Below are positions 33,719 to 59,150 of a stretch of DNA of 64,000 nt, piece by piece. Source of the DNA: Eutreptiella sp. 'Long Island Sound 2002' (lineage: Eukaryota > Euglenozoa > Euglenophyceae > Eutreptiales > Eutreptiaceae); the NCBI GenBank assembly GCA_964036045.1, contig OZ038401.1:32540397-32604396 (forward strand), written 5' to 3'. Every line of letters begins with the position of its first letter. Position 1 is the stretch's first letter. Below the pieces are notes generated by a model that was not told the DNA's origin, did not search any database, and saw only the letters and a program-made list of their open reading frames with translations. The translations under genes and the position numbers were made by a program.

Positions 33719-33740
33719 TTTGCGCGAGGCCTCGCGCAAA
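33719..33740. repeat. Palindrome, copy 1, downstream of gene B
   Basis: A perfect 22-bp palindrome with core TTGCGCGAGGCCTCGCGCAA. It lies in the 3' spacer of copy 1. Confidence 0.9.
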
Positions 33741-33829
33741 CACCAACACAACAGCGCAAAAAATTGCATCACAGAGAAAAATGTGCCGCACAAGGTGACA
33801 GCATAAAGGTCGTCGAAGAGGAATGCATA

Positions 33830-33845
33830 GCGCGAGCCCTCGCGC
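33830..33845. repeat. Palindrome, degenerate, copy 1
   Basis: GCGCGAGCCCTCGCGC, with one mismatch at the centre, just past the gene B stop codon. Position matches the first downstream palindrome of copy 2 (53672-53693). Confidence 0.8.
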
Positions 33846-34701
33846 ATAATATATCAGAACAAGCAAAGAAATTACTTTTTCTTCGGAACAGTTTGCATCT
33901 TAGAACCCAATGCCTTAGCAACGGACGTCCTACCCTTAGGCGGTGGCTTTGCGGGCTCGCTTCTTGGTTGGGACTGACGGGCTGGCTGCTTGAATGGAGC
34001 TCGGGCCCCGGTTTCCTCGGACCTCGGCTTCGCTATCACTTTCTTCGCTGCCTTGCCCTCGGAGACCTGCGCTTCCTCCTCCTCTTCTTCCTCGCTCTCC
34101 TCCTCTTCATCCCCATCGCTCTCGTCTGACTCTGCACCGGTAACCGACTTCGCTGCCTGAGGCTTGGAGGCAGTCTTCTTCTTCTTGGGGGCTGGTTCCC
34201 CACCAGTAGACTTCCGCTTTGCAGCGGTCAGTGCTTCTGCAGCTTGACCTTTCTCAACAGTTTCTTCCTCCTTCAGTGACAACGCATCAGAACCCACCTT
34301 GTCATCGCGAACCCAAAGGGGAATACCACAGTTTGACCAGTTGGCCTGCTGGTCCCAATCACCAGACGCGTCCAGTTTCGACCCTTGTGTCAATACGTGG
34401 TTCAACTGAGTATGCACTCTGTTGACCCAATCGGAGAGATTGTCGGAGGTAACACCAAGAAGGTACATGCGAGAATCCGGCTCGATGGCCGCGATCTTGC
34501 ACACCAGATCCGGCTGATGATCAATGAACACAAACGCAGGCTTGAAGCTCTTATCCTGCTTCAAGTAAAAGAGGTGAGTGTCGAAATACCACATAACCGT
34601 CGTTATCGGAAGGTGACCGCCAAATTCAACAGGATCCATCTCCTCTACTTGAGTAGGTCCAAACGTCAGATAATTCGGAATGTGCAATGAGGGAGAAATT
34701 A

Positions 34702-34721
34702 TTGCGCGAGGCCTCGCGCAA
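34702..34721. repeat. Palindrome in intron 4 of copy 1 gene B
   Basis: Perfect TTGCGCGAGGCCTCGCGCAA. The homologous intron of copy 2 has the 52627-52648 palindrome. Confidence 0.9.
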
Positions 34722-35471
34722 AGAGCGGACGTAATGAGGGAAATATACCTTTCTCGACCAGCTATCCGGTGACGAAATCAGCAACCAGCGAACGTCAAAC
34801 GTTGTAGGATCCCCTGCAGGCTTCGGTTTGACTGGCCAACTGAAGATGGGAATAAGGAACATGTTGCCAATGCGCGGCGCGTTGAAATCATCGTTGAGAC
34901 GCCTCTCTGTTTCCATTTCCAGCGTGTTGAACATGTTGTCACCAACAGTTTTAGAGCCGCACATAAGGGTATCAGCACGCGCCATCTCTTCATACAGCCA
35001 GGCTGGGCACATCATCTCAGGAGCTAGAAGTTCAAATATGTCGCCGTTGATGACAATCAGGTTCTTGTCAATCTCAATAAACCGCCTCGGGGGATCGCGG
35101 GTAAACGCTGCAATTCGGGTCGCCTTAACTGTGATAGTTTGACTTGACAGTAATGGATCCTGCTGTTCCACTGTCTTGAAGTCACCAGTAACGCCAGCAG
35201 GTGGGGGGACCACACGGCTCCTGGTAGGCTCTTGACCCAGGAGTTTTTGGACGTTGAGGATTTTCAGGGAGGCGGGTTTGCCTTTCTCTGCCACCTGCCA
35301 CAGTGGTGCGCGAATCATGGATTTCCATGCCGGCCATGGACCGCGACTTTTGCCTTCAGGTTCCCGCCAATAGCCCCATGTACCAAGAGTCACCTTCAGG
35401 GCAGGCCTTCCAAGTGCAGCAACCTCTTTGCGGGTCCGCATGTCTTTGGCTAAAGAACAGAAATGGAGAAA

Positions 35472-35482
35472 GTGCGGCGCAC
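35472..35482. repeat. Shortened palindrome in intron 3 of copy 1 gene B
   Basis: GTGCGGCGCAC, five-base arms around one base. It keeps only the outer arms of the motif and sits in the intron homologous to the one that holds 51845-51866 in copy 2. It may be an eroded site. Confidence 0.4.
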
Positions 35483-35838
35483 CGATGCAGAAACGGAACC
35501 CACGTCTCGTCGGTGGTACACACCTTTCTCAGGTCGAACGTACTGGCCGTTGTGCGTGTGGTCCAGATGCATTGAGACCCACTGCTCAAGGATGATGTCG
35601 TCAAACGAATTCTGCAAGGATTTAAGGGTTGTTTTTTCTTCCTGCATCACGTCTGCCACTTTGTTGTAGAACTCCGGCAACAGGATCCCGTCCATTTTCT
35701 TCAGCGCGTTCTTCGTGACATCTCCCCTTGGTCGTGGAACTTCTGCAGACCTTTCACAGCTTCCAGACCAGCATAGTAGGCAAACGTCATAAAATCTTTC
35801 CACAATTTATACGTTTTGTCCTGAAAGTGACAACGTTA

Positions 35839-35856
35839 TGCGCGAGGCCTCACGCA
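35839..35856. repeat. Palindrome in intron 2 of copy 1 gene B
   Basis: TGCGCGAGGCCTCACGCA, one mismatch. The homologous intron in copy 2 has 51472-51493. Confidence 0.85.
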
Positions 35857-36275
35857 ACGAAGAGCAACGAAACAACGATTAATGAACATACGAATTGACC
35901 AGGTTGCTTCAGTTCAGCGGTTGGAACCAGGGCACTCATCTGCACAGCATCCACAATGGCAATCTTGAGATTGCTGTACGTGTCAGCCAGGCCTCGCCGC
36001 CGCTGATCTTCAACACATCGAATGAGGTTATCTGCTGCCTCATACAGCGGAATTGGCTCAACGTCTTGTGCGCTTCCTTGTGCTTGTCCCGCCAGCTTTG
36101 CACCGAAGGCCTACGGTGTCGTAGGCTTCAGAATATCGGCGATGCATACAATATGCCACTGCTGCAGATCCAGACACGCTGTACGTCGCTTCCCCCGAAT
36201 CTTCGCAATCGCTTCCACGCTGTGCTGTCCAGATACACACCGATAATCGCCATCTGCAAATATGAGACACTCCTA

Positions 36276-36293
36276 TGCCCGAGGGCTCGCGCA
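36276..36293. repeat. Palindrome, degenerate, intron 1 of copy 1 gene B
   Basis: TGCCCGAGGGCTCGCGCA, two mismatched pairs. Copy 2 intron 1 instead has an unrelated short palindrome, TTCGATCGAA. Confidence 0.75.
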
Positions 36294-36817
36294 ACGAGAA
36301 GAGCGAAAAGTCGGTTGGCAACATACTATTATCTTCCCAGAGAACGAGGTGTAATGGGCCTGTTGGCGGTGCTGCTTCGAGTGACTCAATACGCTTCTGC
36401 AGTAACTTCGTATCTTTCCGTCTAATCTGCCCCTTTGTCTTCTCCTGGTCGATTCTCAAATTGTCCAGCTCAACCTCCACCTGCCTCCCATCCGGCTTCA
36501 GGTGGTCCTCGATGTCAGTGCCCAAGGTTAAGCCAGGATCTGGTGTTTCCTTCTTCTTACGCCCCTTCTTTGGTGTTGCAGCCTCCGATCCCGAGGTCCC
36601 AGGTTCATAGTCGGTATTTTCTCGTTTCTCGGCTGTTTTTTTGGCGGGGCTTCCCATTCTGCGATAAGAAGAAAGCCTGTATTGAAGGAAACATAACATT
36701 GAAAATGGTTAAAATCCTCGTCGATAATGCATATGTGGGGCGCTTTTAGCGAATACGAGTACAGTATGGTTGAGAATGCAAAACTGAAGGGGCTCGGCAC
36801 TGTTTTTGACTGTTAAC

Positions 36818-36839
36818 CTTGCGCGAGGCCTCGCGCAAG
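36818..36839. repeat. Palindrome between genes A and B, copy 1
   Basis: A perfect 22-bp palindrome with core TTGCGCGAGGCCTCGCGCAA. It pairs in position with 50493-50514 of copy 2. Confidence 0.9.
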
Positions 36840-36874
36840 AGAGGGGGTGTACTAACCTGTTGTTTCATGCTGTT

Positions 36875-36892
36875 TGCGCGAGGCCTCGCGCA
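36875..36892. repeat. Palindrome abutting gene A stop, copy 1
   Basis: TGCGCGAGGCCTCGCGCA, directly next to the gene A stop codon (36893-36895). It pairs in position with 50437-50458 of copy 2. Confidence 0.9.
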
Positions 36893-38876
36893 TTACTGCA
36901 TGTTCTTCAATCTTCTTCGAACGTTTCGCAGCGTGTCGGCCTCTCTCTGTTCCTCCAACACACTGCGTTGGGGGATCAGCTCCGACAGTTTTCGCTTGAA
37001 ACCAGCCTTAAGTGGCCTCTGCTGCGTTAGCACCAACAACACAGACACAAGGACTTGTTTGTAGTGGTTAGAACCCTTTGGAATTAGAAGAGACGGTGGA
37101 AAGTTAGGTACACCCCTGCGTGGCCAATGCGCCTGAATTGTACAAGTAGGCTCAGCACACCACCTAACCCAAGGCACATATACACGCTCTGCGTTCAAGT
37201 GAGCAGTTAACCGCTGACGCACGGAATTGACAAAGGAATTGGGGATTTTACAGACGTTCACCCTGTGACCTTCTTTGCGGAAAGTGATGAGCTGATACAG
37301 ATCGTCAACATCTTCAATGATTACTGCACCTCTGTTTTCGCCCTTCTTTGTCACAAGGCTGGAAAGCAGACTTTCACAAAATTCCTGGGCAAAAGCCTGT
37401 CCAGGCATGGCTGTGTGCCATGCAGTGTGGCACAATAGCGCAGCTGCAACAGTGCGTTCGTATTTTAAAAGTGTTTCCCCCATGTTCAAACGGTCTAACA
37501 GACACATAACAATCTGCAATCCCTCAGAAGCAAAAACACCCGTGTTGGCCGTCTCCCCAGCCCACTTGCACTGCCTAACGAGGTGTCCTAGGTATAGTAA
37601 CATGGGACAGTATTGTGTCAACAGAACCTGCATGGCCTTACACACAGCGTAACGGAGGCGACTTCGCCGATTCGCAGGACGTGCCAGCTCAAGGGAATGA
37701 CATTTTTGGTTAAGGCGCCGTATGTGGGGGCCCATACCCAACAGCAGTGCACCAACAGTTATCTCCATTGTGATCAGCTTGGGAAAACAGGGGACTGTGT
37801 CACCGCTGCGCAACAAACCCTTACGGAAAAAAGTCACAATCGGCCAAAATGAGCGAAATGTTTGTGTAACGCAAAATTTGTACGCGTGCCAGAAACCATA
37901 TAATATGGGGTGTGAACGCAAAAAAAGCCGGACGTTCCAACCCGTTGTTTTTTCACCGTACATCATCTTACAAATGCGGTAATGGATGTTCTCATCACAT
38001 AAAACAGGGACAACTGGTCGGGTGTGCTGTGCCAAGTCCCTAGTAAATTCCAGTAGGTTAAGAAGCGATACGTTGCCGCTTACCTTTTCTTTGCTTAGAC
38101 AAAGGGGTCGCCAATGTGGTCTCTTGGCAGGCACGGGGCGAATAATGTCAAGCGGTGCCCTAATGTTTCGCAACAGGTCCCGTGCTTGCAAATCCTAGAT
38201 CGTGCAGGATACGTGCAACCGTTCCCTCGGTGTTTCCCAGCATGCGTGCAACAACAGGAACACGCCGTTCAAGCTCTTCCAGGCTAGGATGACCAAGCCA
38301 GTAGCGCGGTGCATCCTTCAGTAGCAACACAGCCAACGCTGTTGCGTTCAGGCTTTTGTCGTTCTTGTCAGGAATTGTGGTAAACTGTTTGTTGTACCCG
38401 TTGTCCATCCACAACACAGCCCACTGTTGGTGTATTCTGTTCCATGTAGTCTGTAACCTGACTGCGGCCCTCTCCTTCAGCGAAGGTGCGCTGTATCGCG
38501 CCAGACCCGACCTTGCTAAAATGCGACGCTGCGCCCTACTCCCCTCTACCGCAACAACTGACTTTGGTTTTCCCTGGTATGGAACTGCGTGGTGGCGCAT
38601 CAGCAAATAAAGGCGCCAGGCCTTCTCTATCAAAACACCAACCCATCTCTTGCCTTCTGCCGCAATCGCCTTTTCAACGCTGCAACGCGTCCGTTCATTT
38701 TTGCGCAGACGCAGAAAAAACATGAACAACAATCACGCGCCCTCGTCCCCCTGTTTTAGTCCTTCCCACAGTTCTTCTGCCGTGTGGTACGGCGGTTCCT
38801 CTGAGCAGACATCGCGGAAAACTCCGGATGCTGCGGCCACTGTCTTCTCAAGGTCCACCTCTTTTCGCAGTGGCAT
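36893..38876 (-). pseudogene. Gene A of copy 1, disrupted
   Basis: By homology to copy 2 it starts at ATG 38876 (peptide MPLRKEVDLEKTVAAASG). It hits an in-frame TGA at 38733-38735, continues in the same frame, and shifts frame between about 38190 and 38165, after ARILHDLGFA. The remaining 430 codons run to the stop at 36893. Residues shared with copy 2 include the DN motif (VLWMDNGY), DENIHYR, YGFWHAYKF and a later QEF..S. It is a relic of the candidate transposase. Confidence 0.8.
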
Positions 38877-45456: not shown

Positions 45457-47052
45457 AAAAACACACTGGGGTGTGTCGCTACGTCAACGAAGAATGTAGT
45501 GCGGGTAAGTCCCAGAAAAAAATAGAAATGTAGCCTCCATGGGGCGAAATCTGCTTGATCTGACCTGATTTGGGCTGAATTGGCACTGAATCAGGATGGA
45601 TGAACCTGAAATGAGACAGAATGAGGAGTGACGAACAGTCTTCCGTGCAGTAAAACATTAGGTTAAGGGCTAAAAAGCATGTAAACGTATCGAGAATCGA
45701 TACCAAACCATGCATTGGTTGAGAATGAGGTAGATTATTGGTGGATTCAGTGGGGGGATCAAGAAATGGAGTGACATCTCAGCGCTCTGGCACAGTTTCG
45801 CTGTCGCGGGCACGCTACGGTGTCCTCGCCGAACTCTACATCGTGTTACTCCCGCTTTTCTCGTTCTGAAAAGTGCAGCATGTGCTTCAGATTTGGCGCA
45901 TCTGGTGGATGATCACAAGATTCAGCAAGATTGAGAGTCAATTTGAGCAGAGATGAAGGAGATTAAACACTCACAGAGAGGGATAACAAATACAAATGTA
46001 GTCTACAGACCCTAAGTGCACACAAAATCATAAGCGTCAACGAAGGTAGGCAAAGCCGTCGACAGATCTTCGAGGAATGAGAGGAGATGACAAGGAAATC
46101 AACCTAAATTGTCCTAACATGTGCAAATTCCCTAAGATGAAGGTGAAATGAAGCGGAATGTTTAGAACTAAAACTACTAACACTTTCGTTTAGACTAAAG
46201 TTAATATATATTGTCGTTTATTCAGCTCAATTGTGCTTTCCGGCACGTTGGTTCGCGAGCATCTAACAGATTCTATGAAAATGTGGATCATGTGATGATG
46301 CATCATGATGGGACATGCTGGCCCTGGATCCTTGGCATGTAACGCGCCGAAGGTTCGCTGAAGGCGCTTTACTGACAGTATATAACTGAGAGACACCGAA
46401 TTTACAGTGGCGGTGGTGTCAATCGACTTGGACAAGGCCAATCTTTAGATGGAGTCCCACAAGACACTTGGATTCACCATTTTCGACAGTTTCAGGTCGG
46501 ATTGAGCTCACATTGGCGTGTGCCAAAAATACAACGAAGCTTACGGACTTCAGAGGTTGCTGTTAGAAGTCCCTAGAGCTCCTATCTGAAGGTTGTCTGA
46601 ACAATTGACGTCTGGGTTTCGTGCAACAGTGGCAGAATGATGGACAAACCTGAGGATTTCAAGGTAAATCCAAGGAATCCGGATCTGAATCTGGACTTTG
46701 GCTTCAGCATCACGGCAAATGAAGGTAAGATCTGAGTTCCTGGCGTCGCAACTGGTGCAGCCAGTACTACAGGGGGTGCCTGTAGGGGTGAATGTCACCG
46801 GCCGGTGTTTTTACTATGTACATTTGCTTCCATCTGCACGAGTAGCCAAATTCCAAAAATGCACAGACCAACAGAGACAAGATTACCCCGAATCTGCCTG
46901 AATTAAGCCTGAGTTTGGTTTTTTCTGAACACGGCAGCACACTCCGTGGCTTTCGGCAGCGTATCTACGCCTTGTCTGCCGAACGGAGACCAAAGAAAAG
47001 TTGATTGACGTCAAATTATCAAACATTTGCAGTTCTCCACATCAGTTCGAAA
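45457..47052 (-). other. 3' untranslated region of the retrotransposon
   Basis: About 1.6 kb between the end of pol and the polypurine tract. Frames are short and I see no gene. The position and the absence of other insert boundaries assign it to the retrotransposon. Confidence 0.6.
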
Positions 47053-47337
47053 TCAGGAAGAAGGAACAGTGGATTGAGCAGAATGTGGTTGGGGCGAGGC
47101 TGAAGTCGGCCAGGCACGAATACATGTGACCACCAACCTGTCTGGTCGGGCCCTCGTACGGCTTGGGCGCTGCAAATCAGCGGCCGAACTTGAAGCTTGG
47201 TCTTCATTTGGCTCCTGGGCTGGCCTGACCGCAGGAGGGGGGATCGACGGATCAGCCCTGGAATGTGGCTGCTGAGGGCCGTAAAAGGCTGGATCTCGAT
47301 TCACCACAGGTCGTTTTCCGTCGCTCTCCACTTGTCT
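47053..47337 (-). CDS. C-terminal tail of pol beyond the nested transposon
   Basis: This frame joins in phase with the pol frame that stops being retroviral at 54196, once the transposon and one TGTCT copy are discounted. It adds about 93 residues rich in Pro, Ser, Arg and Gln and ends at TGA 47053-47055. It has no recognised domain and is probably a flexible tail after the chromodomain. Confidence 0.75.
   Translation of the reverse strand, partial: RQVESDGKRPVVNRDPAFYGPQQPHSRADPSIPPPAVRPAQEPNEDQASSSAADLQRPSRTRARPDRLVVTCIRAWPTSASPQPHSAQSTVPSS
47333..47337. repeat. Target-site duplication TGTCT, left
   Basis: Directly outside the left terminal inverted repeat. The same five bases follow the right terminal repeat (54196-54200). 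Confidence 0.85.
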
Positions 47338-47360
47338 CTTAGCCCACGCAAACTGCACCC
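47338..47360 (+). repeat. Terminal inverted repeat, left
   Basis: Starts CTTAGCCCACGCAAACTGCA and continues CCC. It is the exact reverse complement of 54173-54195 over 23 bases. Confidence 0.92.
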
Positions 47361-47362
47361 TG

Positions 47363-47385
47363 TTTTGCGCGCCGAACGCGCAAAA
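47363..47385. repeat. Subterminal hairpin of the transposon
   Basis: TTTTGCGCG, five bases, CGCGCAAAA: nine-base arms just inside the left terminal repeat. The right end has no equivalent, so the ends are not symmetrical here. Confidence 0.7.
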
Positions 47386-47456
47386 AAGGACCGGTTCGCA
47401 ACAGGGCAAAAAAACTATTTTTTTGGATGTTTCATGAACGTGATTTTAGACGTAGT

Positions 47457-47474
47457 GAAATAAATTGCTTTTTT
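47457..47474. repeat. Inner inverted motif, left
   Basis: GAAATAAATTGCTTTTTT, the exact complement of 53862-53879. It may be a second terminase/transposase contact site. Confidence 0.8.
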
Positions 47475-47531
47475 CGTGTTGTGCAACTCCGTGTTCCTCA
47501 ATGTGACGTTTTTTACATTTCTCTGGCGTTC

Positions 47532-47557
47532 TGAGTGCGCGAGGCCTCGCGCACTCA
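47532..47557. repeat. Palindrome 1, upstream of gene A
   Basis: A perfect 26-bp palindrome with core GTGCGCGAGGCCTCGCGCAC. Confidence 0.95.
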
Positions 47558-47754
47558 AGATAGCGAAAGCAGAGTTTATCACGAAACGTAACAACCCGTA
47601 AGGACTGGCTTTTGCGGAAATACGCAGCTCCCACACGGTATTAAAATTAGGATTGTGTTGACCAGGGAGCATTGGAAGTGTATGGCTGTCGGACTTCCCA
47701 TGTTAGGGGAAACACATGTACTGTAAAGTGAAAATAAAATACAAATTTAAGCAA

Positions 47755-47784
47755 CCTGAGTGCGCGAGGCCTCGCGCACTCAGG
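47755..47784. repeat. Palindrome 2, upstream of gene A
   Basis: A perfect 30-bp palindrome, the longest of the set; the core GTGCGCGAGGCCTCGCGCAC is extended on both sides by CCTGA/TCAGG. Confidence 0.95.
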
Positions 47785-47942
47785 TCACGTTATGTATTGA
47801 ATTTTCAGACTGGATGTGACGCGTACAATTGCAGGTACAGTACGAGACGGACAAACACGTTTGATTTTTCCGGTGTATATGTGTAGACACCATGTTGATC
47901 AGATTCAACACGGTATAGAACATTGTTTCCCCGGAAACAATC

Positions 47943-47964
47943 AGTGCGCGAGGCCTCGCGCACT
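47943..47964. repeat. Palindrome 3, upstream of gene A
   Basis: A perfect 22-bp palindrome with the same core, about 465 bp before the gene A start. Confidence 0.95.
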
Positions 47965-48427
47965 TAAATGACAGAAGAAAATGAAAAAGCGATCAAGCTA
48001 GGCTACGCCGGTATTTACATTCCCCTTCACGTCTACCACCTGTGACAGTCGATTATACATCGGTAACCTTCGTCATATTTTTCAGGGGATCAGGGGAATG
48101 ATTTGCTTTTTTCCAACAGCCACTCGATGGTAGACGTGTCCGGTTTTAATAGCGGCGTAGCCTTCGTTGACCGATAGACATGGTTTTTTTTTCCAACTGG
48201 GTTTAAAGACGGACGCAGAACAGGAAATTGTGGTTGCGAAAACAGTTTGCGGTTACTGGGAACGGAGCGCACGCAGACACCAAATCCAATTTGCGGCGAC
48301 AGTACACGCACCAGAATGACGACAGGAAAAGGCCAGATGTTTTCTAATACATTTTTTTTAAAGGTCGCTGTGCGAAACGATAACCAACATATGTGCGCAA
48401 ATATAATTCCACAGAGAAAGACGCAAA

Positions 48428-50425
48428 ATGCCACTTCGAGCCAGAAAATCCGTAGAGCAACGCATGATTGCAGAAGTAAGCAAAGGAGCAGCAGCACTAC
48501 GAGAGGCATGCGCGGCAGAACCAGCATACCAAACAGCAGGTGACCTATGGAAAGGACTGAAACGGAACGACCTGGCGGCGCAACTGGTGTTAACATTTGC
48601 ACAGCGACTCAGGTTCAACAAAAGAACGCGCCACAGTTTACCAGCAGCTAAACGACAGGAGGACAAGCGCTGGGTGCGCATTTTGCAACAGGAGGGCTGG
48701 AACCTGTACCTGTTGATGCGTCAACGGGCAGTACCAAACAGGAAAAAACCGGGAAACACAACAGGGTACCTGACGCAAACAGAAAGACGAACAAAAGTAC
48801 GACTCGGGCAAGCAGACGCTGCCGCAGACACAGTGGACGAACAGGCAGCAGCAGCACTTAAAGCAACTTGGTCACTGGTGCTTTCGTCGTGTTGCGTGCT
48901 GTGGATAGACAACTGGTACCGGGCACAATACACGACACACCCAGACGAAAGTGACCGGTCGCAAAACTGTACTGCAATGGCAGTACTTCAACTGAAACAG
49001 AGGCCCACGTATTGGGCAGGACATCCAGCCATTGAGGAACTGGCAGCACGGATAACGACAGTCGCAAGGGCTCTGCAACAGCGTGAACGGAGAATCCACC
49101 AGACATTGCGTGACATGGGGTATGCAGATGGGTGTACACCAGACGCTGGAAACGTGAGAGCGCCGTTGGATGTGAGGAGGGATGCAAGGACTGTACAGGC
49201 ACCGGTGTGGCGCCCGTTTGCCCTGTCCAAAGAGAAGGTAACTTGTGGTGTTGGTCTGTTAAACTTGTTACACTTTGCAAGGGACGTAGCACAACAGACA
49301 AACAGAGTTCTACCGCTGTTGGTTGACGAAAACATACACTACAGGGTACTAAAGTTGTTGTACGGTGCCAAGAACCAACGATGGAACATGCGTGCATACC
49401 TGCGTTACGTGCCTGTAGTTTACGGTGTCTGGCATGCCTACAAGTTCGTTGTTACTCATACTTTTCGGGTGTTCTGGCCTATTCTAACCTACCTACGGAA
49501 AGGTCTGCTACGACCTGGTTCCACCATACTATCATACCCCAAACTGATAGTTATGGAAAAAACTATTGCTGCGCTGATGCTTGCCACACCCCGAATACTA
49601 CGCCCGTATCGGCGCAAGGCACAAGCTGCAACCGCGATCAGTGGTCGTGACACTACGCATGCCAACAGGGCAGCAGTGGCAAACGCAGTCTTGCATTTGT
49701 TGTCGGATTGGTGCCCGTTGTTGTTGTACTTGGGTCACCTGGTACGGGAGTGCAATTGGTCGGGGGAAAACAACGCTACAGGGACACGAGCTCAGGAGGT
49801 GTTGCAGTTGAGTTTGTGTCTGTTGCGGAGGCTGCGTCGAGGACCGTGTGACACCATACTGAAGTACGAGCGCACAATCATGTGCACATTGTTGTACAAC
49901 AGCAAGTGGCACCAGGACCTGCCCGGTCAGGCACACTCAGAGGAGTTTGGAGAAGGGATGTTGAGCAAGCTGGTGCGGGACAAGGCGAGAAACACGGGTT
50001 CTGTTACTGTTCAGGAGGTGGAAAACCATTACTTGTTGCTAAAGGTTGGTCCTGGTGGAAAACGCGTGGGGGTGCAAAACGTTCCCAAGAACCTGGTACA
50101 CAGCATGCGACAACGACTGACCAGATTTTTGGCGACAGACCGGATATGCATGGCCTATGTGGAATGGGAGTCGGACAGAGTAAGCACGGTTGCACCTTCT
50201 TGGCCGCGGAGGTTACCGAGATTTCCGCCCTCACCTACACAACCCCTCGGTTACGACCACTACCGGCTACTTGGTCACAGCGTACTAGATGCCCTCATTG
50301 ACCAGAAAACAAATCCCACCAACCAACTGAAACGGAAACTGGATGCTGTTGTGGGACAGAGAACAGATATGGATGCCGACAGACAGGAAGCAGCAACACG
50401 CAACGTGCGGCAACGCTTGCGGTAA
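48428..50425 (+). CDS. Gene A: candidate transposase, 665 aa
   Basis: ATG 48428 is supported by the homologous start in copy 1 (MPLR in both). TAA ends it at 50423-50425, with no intron needed. Segments conserved between copies include VLWIDNWY (D161), the block NCTAMAVL, a GHP motif (198-200), LVDENIHYR (D300), YGVWHAYKF (H336), a hydrophobic helix to about 375, and AHSEEFGEG (E506, E509). An Asp...Asp...Glu series with a Trp-His element between could form an RNase H-fold DDE catalytic core, as in many cut-and-paste transposases, but this is inference from spacing and placement. The Arg/Lys-rich termini could bind DNA. An alternative is a tyrosine or other recombinase, but no R-H-R-Y pattern was found. 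Confidence 0.7.
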   Translation: MPLRARKSVEQRMIAEVSKGAAALREACAAEPAYQTAGDLWKGLKRNDLAAQLVLTFAQRLRFNKRTRHSLPAAKRQEDKRWVRILQQEGWNLYLLMRQRAVPNRKKPGNTTGYLTQTERRTKVRLGQADAAADTVDEQAAAALKATWSLVLSSCCVLWIDNWYRAQYTTHPDESDRSQNCTAMAVLQLKQRPTYWAGHPAIEELAARITTVARALQQRERRIHQTLRDMGYADGCTPDAGNVRAPLDVRRDARTVQAPVWRPFALSKEKVTCGVGLLNLLHFARDVAQQTNRVLPLLVDENIHYRVLKLLYGAKNQRWNMRAYLRYVPVVYGVWHAYKFVVTHTFRVFWPILTYLRKGLLRPGSTILSYPKLIVMEKTIAALMLATPRILRPYRRKAQAATAISGRDTTHANRAAVANAVLHLLSDWCPLLLYLGHLVRECNWSGENNATGTRAQEVLQLSLCLLRRLRRGPCDTILKYERTIMCTLLYNSKWHQDLPGQAHSEEFGEGMLSKLVRDKARNTGSVTVQEVENHYLLLKVGPGGKRVGVQNVPKNLVHSMRQRLTRFLATDRICMAYVEWESDRVSTVAPSWPRRLPRFPPSPTQPLGYDHYRLLGHSVLDALIDQKTNPTNQLKRKLDAVVGQRTDMDADRQEAATRNVRQRLR

Positions 50426-50436
50426 CTGACACCCGC

Positions 50437-50458
50437 AGTGCGCGAGGCCTCGTGCACT
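50437..50458. repeat. Palindrome 4, after gene A
   Basis: 22 bp with one mismatch (CGTG instead of CGCG in the right arm), eleven bases after the gene A stop. Confidence 0.9.
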
Positions 50459-50492
50459 AAACGTTATGAAAACAGGTATGTAATGCGATGTG

Positions 50493-50514
50493 AGTGCGCG
50501 AGGCCTCGCGCACT
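50493..50514. repeat. Palindrome 5, between genes A and B
   Basis: A perfect 22-bp palindrome with the same core, about 160 bp before the gene B start. Confidence 0.95.
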
Positions 50515-50673
50515 GAGTACTTCGCTAAGTGCCGTGGATTAAGTCACAACAAAGACGTTTGTGGAACAGATTTCCGAAAACGACCTGCAAAATACCGTTT
50601 CGACTGATTTCAGAGTTCAAATGACCGTGTTTCATGTCATGCCATTTGCCCTTTTCAGGTATTGTTTGGCATC

Positions 50674-53629
50674 ATGAGTGAACCAGGGTCGCCAGAACGT
50701 CCAGTAACAGACGCAGAGGCCATGGAGTCGTCACCAGGGACCGACCACGGGGACACGCCGAAGAAAGGACGCAAGAAGAAGGGTGAGAAGAAAGCAATAC
50801 CGGAGATGAAGCTCACAGTCGAAGTGGCACAGTGGCTGCGGCAGGAGAATGGTAAAGCCGTGAAGGTAAAGATTGCTGATTTGAAAATTGACAAGACCAA
50901 GGAGCGCGGACAGATCCGATCCATCAACTATGACGACGTTGCCAGAAAAGTGGCAGGATACCAAGCACTGCCACCAGCTGGACCGTTGCGCATAACGGCG
51001 TGGGAGGATGGTGGTATGACTCGCTTCGCTTTCGATCGAAGACGGTTCTTCTTTTTGCTTCGGTACATGATTTGCTTTGCAGATGGCTCCCTTTACGTTC
51101 TGAATGGTCAACATGGCACAGAAACATGCAGAAAGATTCAGCAACAGCGTCTCGAAGAAGGCAAAGAATTGGAGGATTGGCAGGAGTTTTGCTACGTTGA
51201 CATTCTGAAGTACGAAACGCCTTGGAGGATCCGTGCCAAGGTTGCAGGTTTGCAACAAGCTGGCAGCCAGTCTGTGACGTGGATTTTGCTGTCCGAGGCG
51301 CTGGACAACATGTTGTTGTACATTGAGGATCAGAAGCGGGAAAAAGAGCCACAAGATTTCGAGAGGTTCAAGATTGCTGTTGTCCAAGCTGCCGTCAACT
51401 CTGCGTTTCTTGCACCCGAGGCTTTGGAGGAAGCAGGACATACAGTATGTATTCGTGTATCGCACGGTTACAGTGCGCGAGGCCTCGCGCACTCCATGAC
51501 ACTGTCTCCCCCCGCAGGACTCGACATTCAAGAATTGGAGGGACATCTTCTCCCTGGCGTATTACTGCGGCCGTGAGGCGGTTACTGGTATGAGGAACCT
51601 CGAGAGTAAGAGCAAGAAAGAGGACGTTACAAGGAATGCCTTCAAGAGGCTGGAGGGGCTGCATCTACCGAGCCTATTGCAGAAAGTCTGTGCGCACATG
51701 AACCTGAAGGACTCGACCTTGAAGACCACCCAGAACTACATTGACGCGCAGATTACGGAACAATGGGTTATTTTCCATCTTGACCATCCGGACAATACGC
51801 AGCATGTCAACCAGACCGCAGGTATGCGTCAGTGTCGCAGCTGCAGTGCGCGAGGGCTCGCGCACTTCACCACGTTTGTCACATCCGTACAGCTGCCGAT
51901 GCGAAGATCCGAGCAGAAGTCGCAGCACTGGGCACGCCGCAATTGAAAATTGGGCTTGGAAATTGGGGTTATTGGGTGGACGCAAAAAGTACGAAGTTTC
52001 GGTCGCCCTGGCCAAAATGGAAGACGTTGCTCACTGCACCTCTGTGGCGCACTGGGGACAAGGGCGCACCTCCATTACCACAGACGTTGGCCGTGCGGAA
52101 ACAACTGCAAAGGAAGGTTGAGGCACCATCATCGGCACCTTCACAGACACAGCTCAGTAATGGCGATGTGATCAATGTCTCCAAGTCGGACGAGCAAGGG
52201 ATCAAATACGCTTTGACAGCGTGCCGTATTGAGAATATTGAAGAGACACCGCCAGGCCGTTTCCGGGATCTGCAGTACCCGTTGTGGATCATCAACGCTG
52301 ACCTTTTCATTGAATACGACTCTCCAGGATTTGTTCCGAAGTGGCTGTTCGATGTGATGATGCTGGGGAAAGACGTCATTTTCTATGGCGAGGCTGATGT
52401 TGTGCACCGTATTGGCCGCGAAATGCAGAGGCTCTGGCGTATGGAGAAGGACAAGGATCCAACCACAGTGCCATTCTACCATGTTCGGTTGCCGGTGTAC
52501 TCTTGGTTATCGGGTCCCGTGACCAGCAGTACGTATCAGTTCGACGAGCACTGTATGTGGATCGGAACAACGAGTCGCTGGGATAAGCAGGTATATCTGC
52601 TTCTTTCGATTGTTACGATGCCGTTGTGTGCGCGAGGCCTCGCGCACTGCTGCCTCCGTTATTCGTCTATATTCATCACATTTACAGTTGCCGAACTATG
52701 TGTCGTATTCCGCTGGACATTTCGAAGAGATGCAAGAGAAGAACCTCGGCGGTTTCATGCCTCTGATTCACGTGCTGTGGTACCTGGACAGATACGTTTT
52801 GTGCAGTGGGCTTCCTGATGCAGTGGTTGTTGTGGACGACACGCCTGCCATGGCCGCAAAGATTGCGATGTCTGACCTCAAAACTAAAGTGGCGTTTCTG
52901 GCTGTGTCAACGATCAAGCAAAAGGACCTAGGGAATGCCGTTGGAGGTGCTCTGCAGCATGCAATCGTGATGCGGTACATGCTGGAGGCCGATCAGACGG
53001 AGCAGGGAGCAACAGCTGCAACTTGGGATACTCAAGAAGAGTGGCTCCAGCGTGGCATTCCACTGTGGGTTTTGGACAGCAAACGAGGGCATGAAGGGCA
53101 CCAGCAGGTGCATGCTGCAGAAGCCGTCCAGCAAGATGTCGTGACTGAGGCCCCCGCTGAAGACACTGAGCCTGGTGCGCCTGCACCTACCTTGCCAATG
53201 CAAGCCAAGATGAAGAAGACTGCCAAAGTTGTACCAACTCAGGGTACTGCAGCCGGAAAAGGAACACCCTCGAGTACCAAGAAGCAAGCAAAAGGGAAAG
53301 AGAAGGAATCGGACAAGCCCGCGGAATCAGACGACGACGATACTGACGAGGAGTCAGAAGAAGACGATCTGGAGCAAGTACTGGAGACCCAGCAGAAGCG
53401 CAAGCGGGCATCCGCCTCTCACTTCGATGCAAGCAGCCCCGACTCTGGTAAGGAACAGTCCAAGAAGAAAGCGAAGACTGCTGCCAGTGCTACTGCAGAG
53501 TTCAAGCCGCCCTCGCGTTCTGGTACCCTGCCGTCTCGAGGTACCGTTGCCTCTCCAAGTGGGACAAGTACAACAGCAAGAAGCCTGGGTTCCAGGTTGG
53601 CTAAGGTTGCTGGACCGAAGAAGAAGTAA
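50674..53629 (+). CDS. Gene B: five-exon element protein, 881 aa, unknown
   Basis: Exons: 50674-51013, 51083-51444, 51518-51821, 51893-52590, 52688-53629. Every intron is 69-97 bp, has GT...AG ends and keeps the frame; copy 1 has its introns at the same places. In order, the protein has a Lys-rich nuclear-localisation-like stretch near 28-40 (TPKKGRKKKGEKK), a conserved block to WEDG, an exon 2 block ending KIAVVQAAVNSAF, and an exon 3 block with EQWVIFHLDHPDN. A long exon 4 block contains GRFRDLQYPLWIINADLF and GKDVIFYGEADVVHRIG. The C-terminal third is acidic, then Ser/Lys-rich, and ends PKKK. It could be a DNA-binding or regulatory partner of gene A. I do not recognise the family. The first intron is 69 bp with no stop, so retention would keep the frame. 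Confidence 0.75.
51029..51046. repeat. Short palindrome in intron 1
   Basis: TTCGATCGAA inside the first intron of gene B. It is the one intron of this copy without the long GC palindrome. Confidence 0.4.
51472..51493. repeat. Palindrome 6, intron 2
   Basis: A perfect 22-bp palindrome, inside a 73-bp intron (51445-51517). It takes up almost a third of the intron. Confidence 0.95.
51845..51866. repeat. Palindrome 7, intron 3
   Basis: 22 bp with GGGC at the centre in place of GGCC, inside the 71-bp intron 51822-51892. Confidence 0.92.
52627..52648. repeat. Palindrome 8, intron 4
   Basis: The inner 20 bases are perfect GTGCGCGAGGCCTCGCGCAC, inside the 97-bp intron 52591-52687. Confidence 0.95.
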
Positions 53630-53671
53630 GTCACCATTAACCCAAGTGTTACGCCTCTTTTTGCAGTCATG

Positions 53672-53693
53672 AGTGCGCGAGGGCTCGCGCACT
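53672..53693. repeat. Palindrome 9, after gene B
   Basis: 22 bp with GGGC centre, 43 bp past the gene B stop. Confidence 0.92.
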
Positions 53694-53828
53694 CGCCTTC
53701 GACGCGAATGCAATTATATGTCCTTAAAGGGTTGTACATTTTTGCCAAGCTTTTATCTCAGTGTTTGTACGTTGTGCACTTCGTGTCCTGTTTTTGTTGC
53801 CCTCTGTACACAATTGTTTCCATGACCT

Positions 53829-53854
53829 TGAGTGCGCGAGGCCTCGCGCACTCA
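53829..53854. repeat. Palindrome 10, right end region
   Basis: A perfect 26-bp palindrome next to the inner inverted motif. Its distance to that motif is shorter than on the left end. Confidence 0.95.
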
Positions 53855-53861
53855 GGTACAC

Positions 53862-53879
53862 AAAAAAGCAATTTATTTC
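53862..53879. repeat. Inner inverted motif, right
   Basis: Exact complement of 47457-47474. Confidence 0.8.
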
Positions 53880-54149
53880 GCAGGACAAACATAGGTGCAA
53901 CTGGAGACCCGCAGAATGTCATATTTTGAAAATGAGCTCCCGAACAGGCACGCACCAGTTGGCTTTTGAAATACAAAAACGACAAGATTGGTAAAACACA
54001 CCCCTCAAATCAGACAAAATAATAGTTTATTTTGATAAGCAAAAAGTGGAAAAAAGCAGCAAATTGGGTAAAATTGTATTTTTTCGGTGGCATCTGGGCC
54101 ATGTGTGTTGCAAATGTCCAAAAAAAATAGTTATTTGGGCGGTCATTTT

Positions 54150-57100
54150 TTAGGTCCTTCTCTTCCAAAAGGGGGTGCAGTTTGCGTGGGCTAAGTGTCT
54201 GTCTGGTTTCGACAGACAGTCTGTCAGGAGTACGCCAATTTCGGGGTGCTTCTTGAGGAAGTCGATGAACCCCTTGGTGTACCCATGGACAAAAGATTGG
54301 GCTGGTTCCCAGTTGTTGTGACTGGAATCAAAGCCCCTCCACTCACATAGAAATTCCCATTCGCCCTTGGCGTCACGTCTTGCTTCTAAAATCCTCTTGA
54401 GTTCGTACTTCCCCCCTTCGATGACCCGATCGGACAAAATTTTCGAAGTCCACAAAGGGGGTTTAACCCGATCCTTGGGGGAGGGGATCTCTCTCTTGAG
54501 GCGATCGCCCGAAACGTCAATCTCCCTGCTGACATCCACACGAATCCTCCACCTGTTCTCACCAAGACGCGCTGTAACAGCGAATGGCCCCTCCCACAAG
54601 GGAAGAAGCTTATCGTCTCCGTCCAGGGTGGTTTCGGATTTTCGAAGCCAAACTCGATCATCGACTTCAAAATTGTGGGGGTTTTTTCGACCTAGATTCT
54701 GAACCCAAAGCCAGTCAGCTTGATGCTTATCGATTAATTTCGAGACAGTTTTATCTGCTCGTTGGACGTCGTCCAAAAACAACGAAGCATCTTTACAGGG
54801 GCGAGGATTATTCAACGGCATGTTCCACCAACACTTCTTTCGTCCAAAGACAATTTCATTTGGAGAAAGGCCATGGTACAAAGGCGTGTTGTGGTAACGG
54901 CGAAGCAATGCGAAGAGAACTTCCATCCAATGGAAATCTTTTTCACTCGCGAGCTCCTTACGAAGCATATTTATAATTGAGCGGCCGGCTCTTTCGCCAG
55001 GCAGCGCTCGATGCGAGTGGATTTCACATCGGAGGTGGTGGATTCCAAGGCGAGCACATAATTCTCTCCACCATTCGGAGGTGTACTCTTTGCCTGAATC
55101 CGTCACCACCTCGGATGGGACGTCCCAGCCTCCCATCCAGGTCTGCGCGCACCATTTGGCGGCAGCCTTGCCAGTCATCGACTCAATGTTGCAAGGCAAC
55201 ACTTGAATGTAGCCGGAATGACGGCACTGAATAAGGAGCACACCATTGACCTTTTTATTGGTCCAATGGCACTCTTCGTCATCGAGTTCACCGAGATAGA
55301 AAAAATCACTGGTGACTCTGTTAAAGAGGCGCTCCGGAATAGGATGAGGCCTCAGATGGCCGTGCTTCTTCGCGCTGGGGGGCGTCGAGACAGCACATTG
55401 GGCACATCCGGCGGCTACTTTCATGCAGTGAGTATATAGCCGTGAGCCAAACAACCTATGTTTAATCATCGACCACAGTCGACGGCCATGTGCGTGGGGG
55501 GACTCCCATTTATGCCACCAGTTTAACACTCGGGGGGCCAGGGCGTCTGGTACGCACAATTTACCCTCCATCCACAGTTTCCCCCCATCCAACGAATACT
55601 CAGAAAAAATCCCATCCTTGTGAGCATCTTTGGATTTGAGATTTCCAAAGACCTCTTTAAACATGGGATCCTGCAGATAATCGGACGTCCAGTCACGGAT
55701 GATAAGGGAATCTTTCGGCAGGGGTGGAGTTTTGGCCGGATCTCGACGCTTAATGCCCTGGATCAACCGAAATCGACTTACTCGTCGGGTATAGTCAAAC
55801 CGTTTCACACTCCCTGAGGAGGGATCGGTGACTTTCTCCACGACTTTCAGTGTTTTGGTGCAGATCTCATGAGCATGCGCCGGATCTGAGATGGCCGTGA
55901 TGTCATGGCACGGTAATGCGTGCTGTTTAACAGCGCATTGCATGCGTGCACGTCGAATGAGTTTCTTTTCTTCTTGATCCCATTCGATTATTACATGGCG
56001 GTCCTGCTCCGTACCATGGATGTTGGTACTTTGCAGCCCCTCTGAAGCGGGGTAAGCCCATCGGCTCAGAGCATCCGCTACCGTGTTGTGTTTTCCAGGC
56101 AAATACGACACATGGAGGTCAAACAGACTGAGAAATTCGTGCCATCTGGCCCGTCGACCAGCTGGGCTCGCGACAGTATCAATGTGTTCGGTGGCCCAAT
56201 ACTCCAGAGATCGATGATCCGTCAGGACCTCGACTCGATTGGTGCCAACCCACGATTGGTACTTTTTTAAAGCACAGATTATGGCGTAGGTTTCTTGCTC
56301 ACGCGGCGACCATTGCATTTGGCGTGGAGCTAGCTTCCGCGACCAAAATGCAAGAGGGTAATTATCACCTGTGGCTTCATCAACCTGTTCAAGGACAGCT
56401 CCGATCGCGTACCTAGAAGCGTCGGTTCTAATGTAGAAGGGTCGGTCGAATTGGGGCACATGCAACGTGGCGACTTCACAGAGGGCCGCCTTCAAGTGAT
56501 GGAAGGCCTCCTCGCACTCGTCAGTCCACTTGACACGAACCTTTGAACCTGCCTTGCCTGCATCTCTCCCTACCTTCAATAATTCAGTGAGGGGGGCAGC
56601 AAATTTGGCATAATTCGGCACAAAAGTGTGGTAAAAATTGCAACAACCCAGGAATCCTCTCAATTCCGTGATCGTCACAGGGCGCTTCCACTTCTGAATA
56701 GCGACGAGCTTCCCTGGACTGGGTCGTCGGGTGCCATTCTCAAGGAGAGAACCACAAAATTCGACTGATTTTAAAAATAGTTTTCCCTTCTTTGGCCCAC
56801 AAATCAGCTGATTGGCGTCAAGAATGTCCAAAACTTGGTTCAGCTGCTTCTCATGTAGGGCCACCAGCTCGGCTTCGGTCAGTCCCTCCCCCTCCGTCGC
56901 GATGATTATGTCATCTATGTACACACTCACAAAGGCACGAAGCTCAGGATGGGCTGTAAAAAGCACATCCTCCATCATTCTTTGAAAAAACGAAGGGGCG
57001 TTCTTCAGGCCCATGGGCATGACTGTCCACTGGACTGGGCCACATGGCGTGCACATACAAGTGAGAGGTCGGCTGTCCTTCCTCAACGGCATTTGGTGAA

Positions 57101-59018
57101 AGCCGTGACGGAGATCCAGCACAGAAAACAAACGACCTCTTGCCCTCTTGGCGATTTCCTCCTCAATGAGGGGCAGGGGGTGCGAATCCGCCTTGGTTTC
57201 GGCGTTGAGATTGCGAAAATCAACCACCATTCGCCAACCATCAATGGTGTTCTGGTCTGCAGGCGGCGGCTTCGGGACTGTGAAGGGTGCACAGCACCAT
57301 TCGCTGGTCATACAACCCTCAAGCCAACCAAATTCCCTGAGATTTCTCTCGATGACTTTTCTGAGGATCTCATGTTTATGTCCATGGTTCTCATAAGGAC
57401 GCTGTTTCTTCGCCTTGTAACCTTCACGAAGCTTGATGAAGGCTTCACCGAACTGCCCACGGACAGGGGGGTCTTTGATCAACTTCCCCGAAAGGGTTGT
57501 GTCCTTCCGTTCCTCAAAAATCTTTTCTCTTGCCTTGGAACACAATTCAGTGTCAACCTGATCGCCAGGAATTACTGTCGAAAAAACTTTGGCGACGTCT
57601 TCGGCCTTGGCAGGAAGAATCTTCTTACGGATGTCCCTAAAGAGGTCCGTATCAACTGCCTCTTGAAGATAGGTGGGTCGAGTGTCGACATTCCAGAGAT
57701 TATCTTCGTGATCCAGCTCCTCGAAAGGATCTATGAAAGCTTCCACAGGGGGTTTTTCATAAAAAACTCTGAATTTGCAGCGCGATTTAAGATTTTTCTT
57801 CGCCCGTGCACTGAAGATTCTTTTCGATGTCGATCGTATTGGGGAAGAGGGAGACGAGGCGGATCCATTTGACGTTGGATCACCTTGGGTATCTGACGGA
57901 CAAAAATCAGAAAAAATAGATTCATCATCAGTACCACGCTCAACCTCAGATTCAGACCCAACACAGGAATCTGTACTAGAATCAGCATAATTAGAGTCAG
58001 AAAGCTTTCCATCCACCAGGAATGCAAGCGAACTCCAGGACCGCTGTGGCAGGGGACCTGTGTCGTCCCTGGCATACAGCTTAATCTTCCTGGGAAGTTC
58101 GATGTAATCTACACAAATGTCTTGTAATTCCTGAAACCAAGGCTTGTCGTCCCACAAGGGCACAACTAAAATTGCCTGGGTTTTATCTTGCTTGATTTTG
58201 TGGATGACCTGCTGGATTAAGTGAAACGGAGGATTAATCCACAACTTCTTGTCCCATTTATGGGTCCAAGCGTCGCTAAAGTGCTTGTCAAAGCGCTTGT
58301 TCTTACGGTTAGCAAAGGCATCATACTGTGGCCAAAAGGAATGGTGTTCATGAAAATATTCACAAATTGCATCGCGCCATTTGTCGACAACTCTGTAGGA
58401 TGAAGAGTGCCAGCGCGAAGGGCGTCGTGGCTGGGAGTCCCTACGAAGACATTCTAACTCTCGGGAGTAATCGGCACTCCCATTCACCTCTGCAATGGTG
58501 ACATCTTCGCCAAATTTTGGTGTAACTTTTTGCTTCAAAAATTCTTCTGCACTTTTAAACCCTGCGTGCAAAAAACGAAATTCAGGACGCTCCAGGGGAC
58601 CCCACTTCAGCAAAAAACAACGCCGATGACCTACGGGCGCCACCCTGTTCTTGCGAAGCCAAGGATGGCCCAAGTAAAGGTCATACTTTATGTCGGCACG
58701 ATAGAAGTAGTCATCCTTAAGGACAACTTCCTCCACATTACCTTCTTCCCAAAGGTCTTGAGCGACCAAATGAGTTGATATATAACAACCGCGTTGCCCA
58801 CCTGCGAGAGAATGTCCAGAAACTCCCTCGAGGGTAACAGGATGAGGCGACTCAAACACGCAGTCGTCGGGTAAGAACGAATTGGATTGGAGATTTACCT
58901 CTGATCCATTGTCACACAAACAAGTGGCGAGGTGGAAATTTCCCTTGCAATCAGAGACCCACAGCTTTGTGACAAACTGACGGGCCCTGTGCTTGGACTG
59001 TACACCAACCTCGTCCAC
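54150..59018 (-). CDS. pol: Pol polyprotein of the chromovirus (main part)
   Basis: In frame with gag after a UAG. Residues counted from 59018: retropepsin-like protease with CDNGS (D36); a domain at about 225-345 with WINPPF (262-265), a VVPLW segment and a K/W-rich core, resembling DNA N6-adenine methyltransferases; an acidic linker; reverse transcriptase at about 555-800 with YIDD at 700-703; RNase H with D866, E907, D933 and D981; and integrase with a zinc-binding H..H..C..C near 1174-1207 and catalytic D1237, D1306, E1341. A chromodomain lies at about 1536-1580 and may direct insertion to modified chromatin. The last 14 or so codons are encoded by the inserted transposon's terminal repeat, ending in TAA. 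True pol resumes at 47337. Confidence 0.93.
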   Translation of the reverse strand: MDEVGVQSKHRARQFVTKLWVSDCKGNFHLATCLCDNGSEVNLQSNSFLPDDCVFESPHPVTLEGVSGHSLAGGQRGCYISTHLVAQDLWEEGNVEEVVLKDDYFYRADIKYDLYLGHPWLRKNRVAPVGHRRCFLLKWGPLERPEFRFLHAGFKSAEEFLKQKVTPKFGEDVTIAEVNGSADYSRELECLRRDSQPRRPSRWHSSSYRVVDKWRDAICEYFHEHHSFWPQYDAFANRKNKRFDKHFSDAWTHKWDKKLWINPPFHLIQQVIHKIKQDKTQAILVVPLWDDKPWFQELQDICVDYIELPRKIKLYARDDTGPLPQRSWSSLAFLVDGKLSDSNYADSSTDSCVGSESEVERGTDDESIFSDFCPSDTQGDPTSNGSASSPSSPIRSTSKRIFSARAKKNLKSRCKFRVFYEKPPVEAFIDPFEELDHEDNLWNVDTRPTYLQEAVDTDLFRDIRKKILPAKAEDVAKVFSTVIPGDQVDTELCSKAREKIFEERKDTTLSGKLIKDPPVRGQFGEAFIKLREGYKAKKQRPYENHGHKHEILRKVIERNLREFGWLEGCMTSEWCCAPFTVPKPPPADQNTIDGWRMVVDFRNLNAETKADSHPLPLIEEEIAKRARGRLFSVLDLRHGFHQMPLRKDSRPLTCMCTPCGPVQWTVMPMGLKNAPSFFQRMMEDVLFTAHPELRAFVSVYIDDIIIATEGEGLTEAELVALHEKQLNQVLDILDANQLICGPKKGKLFLKSVEFCGSLLENGTRRPSPGKLVAIQKWKRPVTITELRGFLGCCNFYHTFVPNYAKFAAPLTELLKVGRDAGKAGSKVRVKWTDECEEAFHHLKAALCEVATLHVPQFDRPFYIRTDASRYAIGAVLEQVDEATGDNYPLAFWSRKLAPRQMQWSPREQETYAIICALKKYQSWVGTNRVEVLTDHRSLEYWATEHIDTVASPAGRRARWHEFLSLFDLHVSYLPGKHNTVADALSRWAYPASEGLQSTNIHGTEQDRHVIIEWDQEEKKLIRRARMQCAVKQHALPCHDITAISDPAHAHEICTKTLKVVEKVTDPSSGSVKRFDYTRRVSRFRLIQGIKRRDPAKTPPLPKDSLIIRDWTSDYLQDPMFKEVFGNLKSKDAHKDGIFSEYSLDGGKLWMEGKLCVPDALAPRVLNWWHKWESPHAHGRRLWSMIKHRLFGSRLYTHCMKVAAGCAQCAVSTPPSAKKHGHLRPHPIPERLFNRVTSDFFYLGELDDEECHWTNKKVNGVLLIQCRHSGYIQVLPCNIESMTGKAAAKWCAQTWMGGWDVPSEVVTDSGKEYTSEWWRELCARLGIHHLRCEIHSHRALPGERAGRSIINMLRKELASEKDFHWMEVLFALLRRYHNTPLYHGLSPNEIVFGRKKCWWNMPLNNPRPCKDASLFLDDVQRADKTVSKLIDKHQADWLWVQNLGRKNPHNFEVDDRVWLRKSETTLDGDDKLLPLWEGPFAVTARLGENRWRIRVDVSREIDVSGDRLKREIPSPKDRVKPPLWTSKILSDRVIEGGKYELKRILEARRDAKGEWEFLCEWRGFDSSHNNWEPAQSFVHGYTKGFIDFLKKHPEIGVLLTDCLSKPDRHLAHANCTPFWKRRT
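54173..54195 (-). repeat. Terminal inverted repeat, right
   Basis: Exact complement of 47338-47360. It is translated as the false C-terminus of the interrupted pol frame. Confidence 0.92.
54196..54200. repeat. Target-site duplication TGTCT, right
   Basis: Matches 47333-47337. Confidence 0.85.
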
Positions 59019-59147
59019 TACAACAGAAGGATCCGCTGCCGGATCCAGGGGAGAGGAGACAAGCGACCCTACATCAAGTAATGGTCGATCAGGAATCTGG
59101 GGATCATGCCTGAAATCGCCTGGGGAGGGGCGATTTTCGTGGCTCCC

Positions 59148-59150
59148 CTA
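59148..59150 (-). promoter_or_regulatory. In-frame UAG between gag and pol
   Basis: Gag ends TAG followed by GGG AGC, and 43 open codons then lead to the first annotated pol codon in the same frame. This fits termination readthrough as the way to make a small amount of Gag-Pol. The alternative is a nonsense mutation in a single fused ORF. Confidence 0.65.

Follow-up and report, generated by a model that had tools for sequence, protein, structure and literature searches.

Introduction

Target duplications of VANDAL elements are 9 bp long; the En/Spm (CACTA) elements carry subterminal repeats bound by TNPA, a CACTA terminus and a 3-bp duplication, and the bacterial ParB protein binds CTP and spreads from parS. 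According to the portions of the cited papers used here, VANC21 is located on VANDAL21 at introns, intergenic regions and terminal non-coding DNA, binding a short motif there (PMC5735166), and binding of VANC in the non-coding DNA of VANDAL elements counteracts silencing (PMC5735166, PMC10398659); in introners, as described in the portion of PMC7789003 used here, the 5' end of the intron is paired with its 3' end through inverted repeats, and introners propagate in the manner of mobile elements. The subject of the present analysis is a DNA transposon, E1, in a stretch of 64,000 nucleotides (the window) from Eutreptiella sp. 'Long Island Sound 2002' (contig OZ038401.1, positions 32,540,397 to 32,604,396, forward strand); E1 has two genes, A and B, and holds ten copies of a 20-bp palindrome, none of them in an exon, and a decayed sister element, E2, lies in the same window. 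All positions are those of the window.

The palindrome is best explained, with confidence and doubt in about equal measure, as a binding site of two-fold symmetry, at which a protein that the element itself encodes would sit as a dimer, at some ten places along E1. Each arm would present one half-site, TGCGCGAG, around a two-base centre; the product of gene B is the more likely binder and that of gene A a possible one. The likeliest purpose would be to mark or coat the non-coding DNA of the element and so to keep the element active (by anti-silencing or promoter control), in the manner of the VANC proteins on the VANDAL elements of Arabidopsis, and binding may also help to bring the element ends together. 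Protein binding, the choice of protein and its purpose are all what we infer; a dimeric DNA-binding protein fits because the sites are symmetric and are dispersed beside and inside the genes.

Results

Palindromes of E1 and their placement

The window was searched with GTGCGCGAGGCCTCGCGCAC at up to 3 mismatches; 15 matches were obtained, and none in any of 100 shuffles. Ten matches lie in E1 (starts 47535, 47760, 47944, 50438, 50494, 51473, 51846, 52628, 53673 and 53832), the number given in the original prediction; seven of these 20-bp sequences are exact, and those at 50438, 51846 and 53673 have one mismatch each. Their predicted division was also recovered: three upstream of gene A, two between the genes, three in introns of gene B and two after gene B. 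The remaining sites of the window, seven in number, are all in E2 (five from the 3-mismatch search and two decayed ones from a search with the inner 16 bases at up to 4 mismatches), in agreement with the claim that within the window the motif is restricted to the element and its sister; the inner-16-base search of the 64-kb window also added a weak match at 9244, which is unrelated. Every perfect palindrome of at least 18 bp in the window (11 in all) is an E1 or E2 palindrome site, and 7/10 sites of E1 and 4/7 sites of E2 carry the 18-bp core TGCGCGAGGCCTCGCGCA without a change. The exact 20-base palindrome gave no match in viral_contigs, the 16-base core as a letter string was not found in the open-access literature searched, and no description of the element or the palindrome was found among the papers listed there, as judged by titles and the openings of abstracts.

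The exons of E1 hold none of the ten palindromes, as had been claimed; the non-coding share of E1 is 32.3%, and the chance of ten non-coding sites out of ten is P = 1.2e-5. With E2 included, the 18-bp cores are non-coding at 17/17 sites; the 20-mer at 36874 overlaps the stop codon of gene A by one base. Such avoidance of exons could also come solely from selection against insertion into coding sequence. A significant preference for introns over the other non-coding DNA of E1 was rejected (3/10 sites, P = 0.155). Sites would be present in introns because few other transcribed places can accept one and leave the protein unchanged.

Symmetry of the sites

The centre is self-complementary at 13/17 sites. 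Across the 17 sites 12 non-Watson-Crick pairs were counted (centre, 4; outermost pair, 4; other arm positions, 4); two half-sites with a free spacer, and hence a dimeric binder, fit these counts because 8 of the 12 fall at the centre or the outermost pair. The same pairs bear on an RNA hairpin, in which a transcript stem of 8–9 pairs with a GGCC-type loop would shorten the intron, aid splicing or affect RNA stability. The palindrome does form a hairpin in the predicted folds of introns b, c and d (whole-intron folds, −25.8, −24.2 and −19.5 kcal/mol, respectively; raw energies, without a shuffle baseline), the arm changes at 50438 and 35838 leave G.U pairs in the sense strand, and the central bases vary. 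This explanation is nevertheless considered unlikely: the arm changes at 36275 and 33828 abolish pairing, a loop has no need of the self-complementary centre, intron a of E1 and intron c of E2 manage without a palindrome, and a hairpin does not obviously explain the three sites about 460–890 bp 5' of gene A or the two past gene B.

The outermost pair is G/C at 10/10 sites of E1; in E2 it is T/A at 3/7 sites and A/A or T/T at 4/7. This difference between the elements is better fitted by a partner that co-evolves with the element than by a host factor (an activator, an insulator or a reader of methylation) whose site the element had recruited. A host factor, for which the CpG content and the non-coding placement would be suitable, is quite improbable, the rest of the window being free of copies.

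Comparison with the sister element

Gene A of E1 and gene A of E2 are 46% identical (425 aligned residues), and gene B, in the ORF (open reading frame) stretch compared, is 30% identical. The four introns of gene B occupy the same places in E1 and E2, and on this ground their being young palindrome-carrying insertions was rejected. Six of the seven E2 palindromes are in places that match E1 (two past gene A, one each in introns b and d, and two beyond gene B), the spacing of the pair just past gene A being 56 bp in E1 and 55 bp in E2. Presence differs at two introns: intron a has a palindrome in E2 only, and intron c in E1 only. The sequence GTGCGCCGCAC in intron c of E2 might, at a guess, be the remnant of a collapsed palindrome. 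There are no palindromes upstream of gene A in E2 within the window, so that the three upstream sites of E1 are without comparison; E2 may be truncated upstream of gene A.

The decay of E2 is seen in one stop and a frame change in gene A, and in a stop in exon 2 and a frame change in exon 3 of gene B, the last intron of which ends in CAC. An intact gene A of the E2 type is present in the database (P0036, 95% identical across 429 residues). No convincing terminal repeat was found for E2 by searching for the E1 repeat at up to 7 mismatches and for 12-mer inverted repeats around E2.

Conservation in other copies

Database ORFs that continue across introns served to assess conservation. A search with a profile built on both exon 4 ORFs gave 379 proteins, the best 120 of which were used (61 E1-type and 59 E2-type); 47/61 E1-type and 10/59 E2-type copies passed the read-through filter (at least 20 amino acids past exon 4), and the peptide of an intact intron d palindrome was present in 33/47 and 6/10 of these, respectively. 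A tree was built from 62 E1-type rows for exon 4 (the window plus 61 database proteins; 48–50 rows at the palindrome); on it the six codons of the intron d palindrome underwent 13 inferred changes per 191 weighted cells vs 77/343 and 51/394 for the flanks (P = 2.3e-4). The rate of change of the palindrome is thus 1.9–3.3 times lower than that of the intron on either side, despite four CpG. A tree-free count in 44 copies agreed with this: the commonest residue was matched at a rate of 0.93 in the palindrome, 0.79 and 0.86 in the flanks, and 0.89 in the final 100 codons of exon 4. Outside gene B, the gene A ORFs P0022 and P0028 extend past the usual end, and both show the palindrome that follows gene A.

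Several results weigh against a protein-bound, conserved site. The exon 4 query contained the palindrome peptide and may favour copies that keep it. Among the read-through copies (from the best 120 of 379) the intron d palindrome is changed in 14/47 E1-type and 4/10 E2-type ones, and it is changed also in P0183 (E2-type, outside the read-through filter); changed copies are as expected of dead elements, but equally of weak constraint. At intron c the palindrome is not clearly slower than its surroundings (14 changes in 94 cells vs 11/73 and 26/136 for the flanks; E1-type, unweighted, 14–17 rows per codon), and these counts speak against strong constraint at that site. Finally, a DNA-binding domain was recognised neither in the gene A protein nor in the gene B protein by profile scans. 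In the E2-type, the intron c palindrome peptide was found in 0/17 ORFs that start in or before intron c (best 120 of 379), only 6/17 of which reach at least 15 codons into it; the upstream part of one of the six, P0167, may be unrelated.

The centre codon at intron c is Ala in 14/16 E1-type rows, i.e., a site-specific GGGC-type centre persists there, on which ground continual homogenisation of all sites was rejected. The persistent centre also argues against a very short selfish repeat, itself the palindrome, that would insert into the element on its own. Mobile palindromic repeats are reportedly present in some organelle genomes, and the many near-identical copies, as well as the differences in presence between E1 and E2 at introns a and c, would suit such a repeat; it is a decidedly unlikely explanation, since six places are common to E1 and E2 across a deep divergence, no copy lies elsewhere in the 64 kb, and no target duplications were seen by eye around the sites.

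Genes A and B

Database relatives of gene A were 65 among 8,000 scored candidates, in clusters of up to 277 members; the most distant ones (P0061–P0065) are 30–36% identical. Among the acidic residues D300 is invariant, and D248, E301 and E377 are nearly so. The protein is probably transposase-like, because gene A is conserved, belongs to an inverted-repeat element of high copy number and has retained several acidic residues. No Pfam model matched gene A or any of the 20 aligned members above the cut-off, the best being far below it; the profile had no match among solved structures; and the alignment led to no confirmed locus in viral_contigs, from 17 pattern stretches, or in genome_contigs, from 34. 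A resemblance to the DUF6589 family was considered and rejected: 0/20 scanned members match DUF6589, and no paper in the open-access literature searched was found to join DUF6589 with transpos-.

The splice sites of gene B were predicted from the reading frame and the comparison of E1 with E2; the four introns are short and of the GT-AG type. Such introns, the gypsy-type retroelement and the presence of relatives on ENA contigs as long as 6.5 Mb would suit a protist or alga as the host. The introns of 71–97 bp named in the original prediction are the three with palindromes (73, 71 and 97 bp); the fourth, palindrome-free intron (69 bp) was not mentioned there. Intron a has no in-frame stop, so its retention adds 23 amino acids rather than breaking the protein. 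Gene B had no Pfam match above the cut-off (best far below), and its N-terminal stretch had one match among solved structures (E 1.3; unspliced query including intron a). At 50674–51441 the sequence NGQHGTETC (E2: SGQHSVEAI) resembles, by eye only, the ParB/sulfiredoxin motif; the N-terminal parts of gene B gave no ParB profile match in Pfam or NCBIfam.

Ends and insertion site of E1

The longest arms are those of U1, U2 and D2 (Table 1), the first and last of which form an inverted match across E1. An exact 18-bp inverted repeat, GAAATAAATTGCTTTTTT, is found at 47457–47474 and 53862–53879, by the outermost palindromes and well inside the terminal repeats; because of it and of the U1/D2 match the subterminal regions of E1 are partly symmetric. 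The variant palindrome of Table 1 follows closely on the inner side of the left terminal repeat and is flanked by runs of T and A; by eye, a counterpart at the right end is absent. If the gene A protein alone used the palindromes, as internal or subterminal repeats for synapsis and cutting and with no role in expression, then long palindromes near the ends, the inverted match of U1 with D2 and the variant beside the left terminal repeat would be accounted for. Subterminal repeats usually cluster at the ends of an element, and 5/10 sites are deep inside E1 (in introns and between the genes) and not clustered at the ends; this alternative is accordingly held to be improbable.

E1 is inserted in an ORF of a gypsy-type retroelement (minus strand). 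When the flanks were joined minus one copy of TGTCT, the retroelement ORF read on for 94 amino acids to a stop; the duplication was deduced from the identical 5-bp flanks, and other joins of the same remainder modulo three also hold the frame. Matches of the interrupted ORF to the models for reverse transcriptase, RNase H and chromo exceed the cut-off, and its integrase match falls narrowly short. The chromodomain gypsy-type retroelement covers 54201–62183 and about 47050–47337 (minus strand), and E1 breaks its pol ORF close to the end; its upstream ORF (59148–62183) is gag-like by eye, without a Pfam match. Elsewhere in the window, the translation of an ORF at 15300–15779 has a long run of X, i.e., the bases there are unresolved or masked.

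Table 1. Coordinates of E1, its genes and palindromes, and of the sister element E2.
Feature	Position	Strand	Remarks
DNA transposon E1	47338..54195	+	6,858 bp; terminal inverted repeats, 5-bp target duplication
Target duplication TGTCT, left copy	47333..47337		
Left terminal inverted repeat	47338..47360	+	CTTAGCCCACGCAAACTGCACCC
Variant palindrome TGCGCG-CCGAA-CGCGCA	47366..47382		related arms, other centre; outside the ten
Palindrome U1	47532..47557		perfect, 26 bp; inverted match to D2
Palindrome U2	47754..47785		perfect, 32 bp
Palindrome U3	47943..47964		perfect, 22 bp
Gene A	48428..50425	+	ORF; 665 amino acids, single exon
Palindrome AB1	50438..50457		one change, G.T pair left
Palindrome AB2	50493..50514		56 bp past AB1 (E2: 55 bp)
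Gene B	50674..53629	+	881 amino acids, five exons; predicted, one-open-frame splice model
Intron a	51014..51082	+	69 bp; palindrome-free; decayed palindrome in E2 counterpart
Intron b	51445..51517	+	73 bp; palindrome 51472–51493; present in E2 too
Intron c	51822..51892	+	71 bp; palindrome 51846–51865, centre GGGC; E2 intron without palindrome
Intron d	52591..52687	+	97 bp; palindrome 52628–52647; present in E2 too
Palindrome D1	53673..53692		centre GGGC
Palindrome D2	53829..53854		perfect, 26 bp
Right terminal inverted repeat	54173..54195	-	perfect across 23 bp
Target duplication TGTCT, right copy	54196..54200		
Sister element E2	33720..38876	-	decayed; seven palindromes: 33720, 33828, 34702, 35838, 36275, 36819, 36874

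Discussion

The proposal that the palindrome is a dispersed binding site is in keeping with a site kept by the family (matching places in E2, the 18-bp core, the slow change at intron d); its second half, that the introns exist partly to hold the palindrome, finds no support: E1 and E2 agree in the places of all four introns, the palindrome is absent from intron a of E1 and intron c of E2, and the preference for introns is not significant. If a dimeric protein of the element does bind the palindrome, the presence of a strongly kept 18-bp word in the short introns of such elements would be explained; the exact palindrome would ease binding tests, and the sites and proteins of the two families could be swapped.

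Known systems resemble E1 in part. ParB/parS has a palindrome of similar length repeated within one replicon, unlike which E1 is a eukaryotic transposon and has no recognised gene for a partition ATPase. It is conceivable, though very improbable, that the product of gene B has a ParB fold, loads at the parS-like palindromes of introns, spacers and ends and coats the whole element, for open transcription or for pairing and moving, E1 then being of a two-gene type without recognised relatives; were this true, a eukaryotic mobile element would be using a system like a partition complex on itself. The introner elements of Amoebophrya and other algae are similar in that inverted repeats and hairpins occur in protist introns (PMC7789003, in the portion used). 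Introners are marked by inverted repeats at the intron ends, direct repeats at the boundaries and a spread to new places; in E1 the palindrome is internal to the intron and is present also outside introns, and the intron places are common to E1 and E2 (4/4). With En/Spm (CACTA) E1 has in common two genes and a short repeated motif possibly bound by the element's own protein; it differs in that the sites are palindromic and spread throughout, the ends are CTTAGCCC and the duplication is of 5 bp.

The preferred reading, a dimeric site for an element-encoded protein, brings E1 nearest to VANDAL21 and VANDAL6 (Mutator-like elements of Arabidopsis), the motifs of which are enriched in the element, lie mainly in introns, intergenic regions and terminal non-coding DNA and differ among related families (PMC5735166, in the portion used). 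The placement in E1 is of the VANC kind, with the motif in introns, intergenic DNA and terminal non-coding DNA. The VANC motifs themselves are unlike those of E1, being 8–9 bases long and set in tandem arrays of the same orientation, with palindromy unmentioned in that portion of the source (PMC5735166), whereas E1 has a dispersed palindrome of 18–20 bp. The target duplication of E1 is TGTCT, 5 bp rather than 9 bp, and a Mutator-type transposase domain had no Pfam match in gene A or its 20 aligned members, a very remote kinship being possible. Because the features tested for membership in the VANDAL, CACTA and introner groups fail, E1 would be at most VANDAL-like in its working, with VANC-like action, and a member of none of the three. 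If the proposed binding is true, the dispersed self-recognition of non-coding DNA seen in Mutator-like elements of plants gains a counterpart in a protist, in an element that fails the Mutator features tested.

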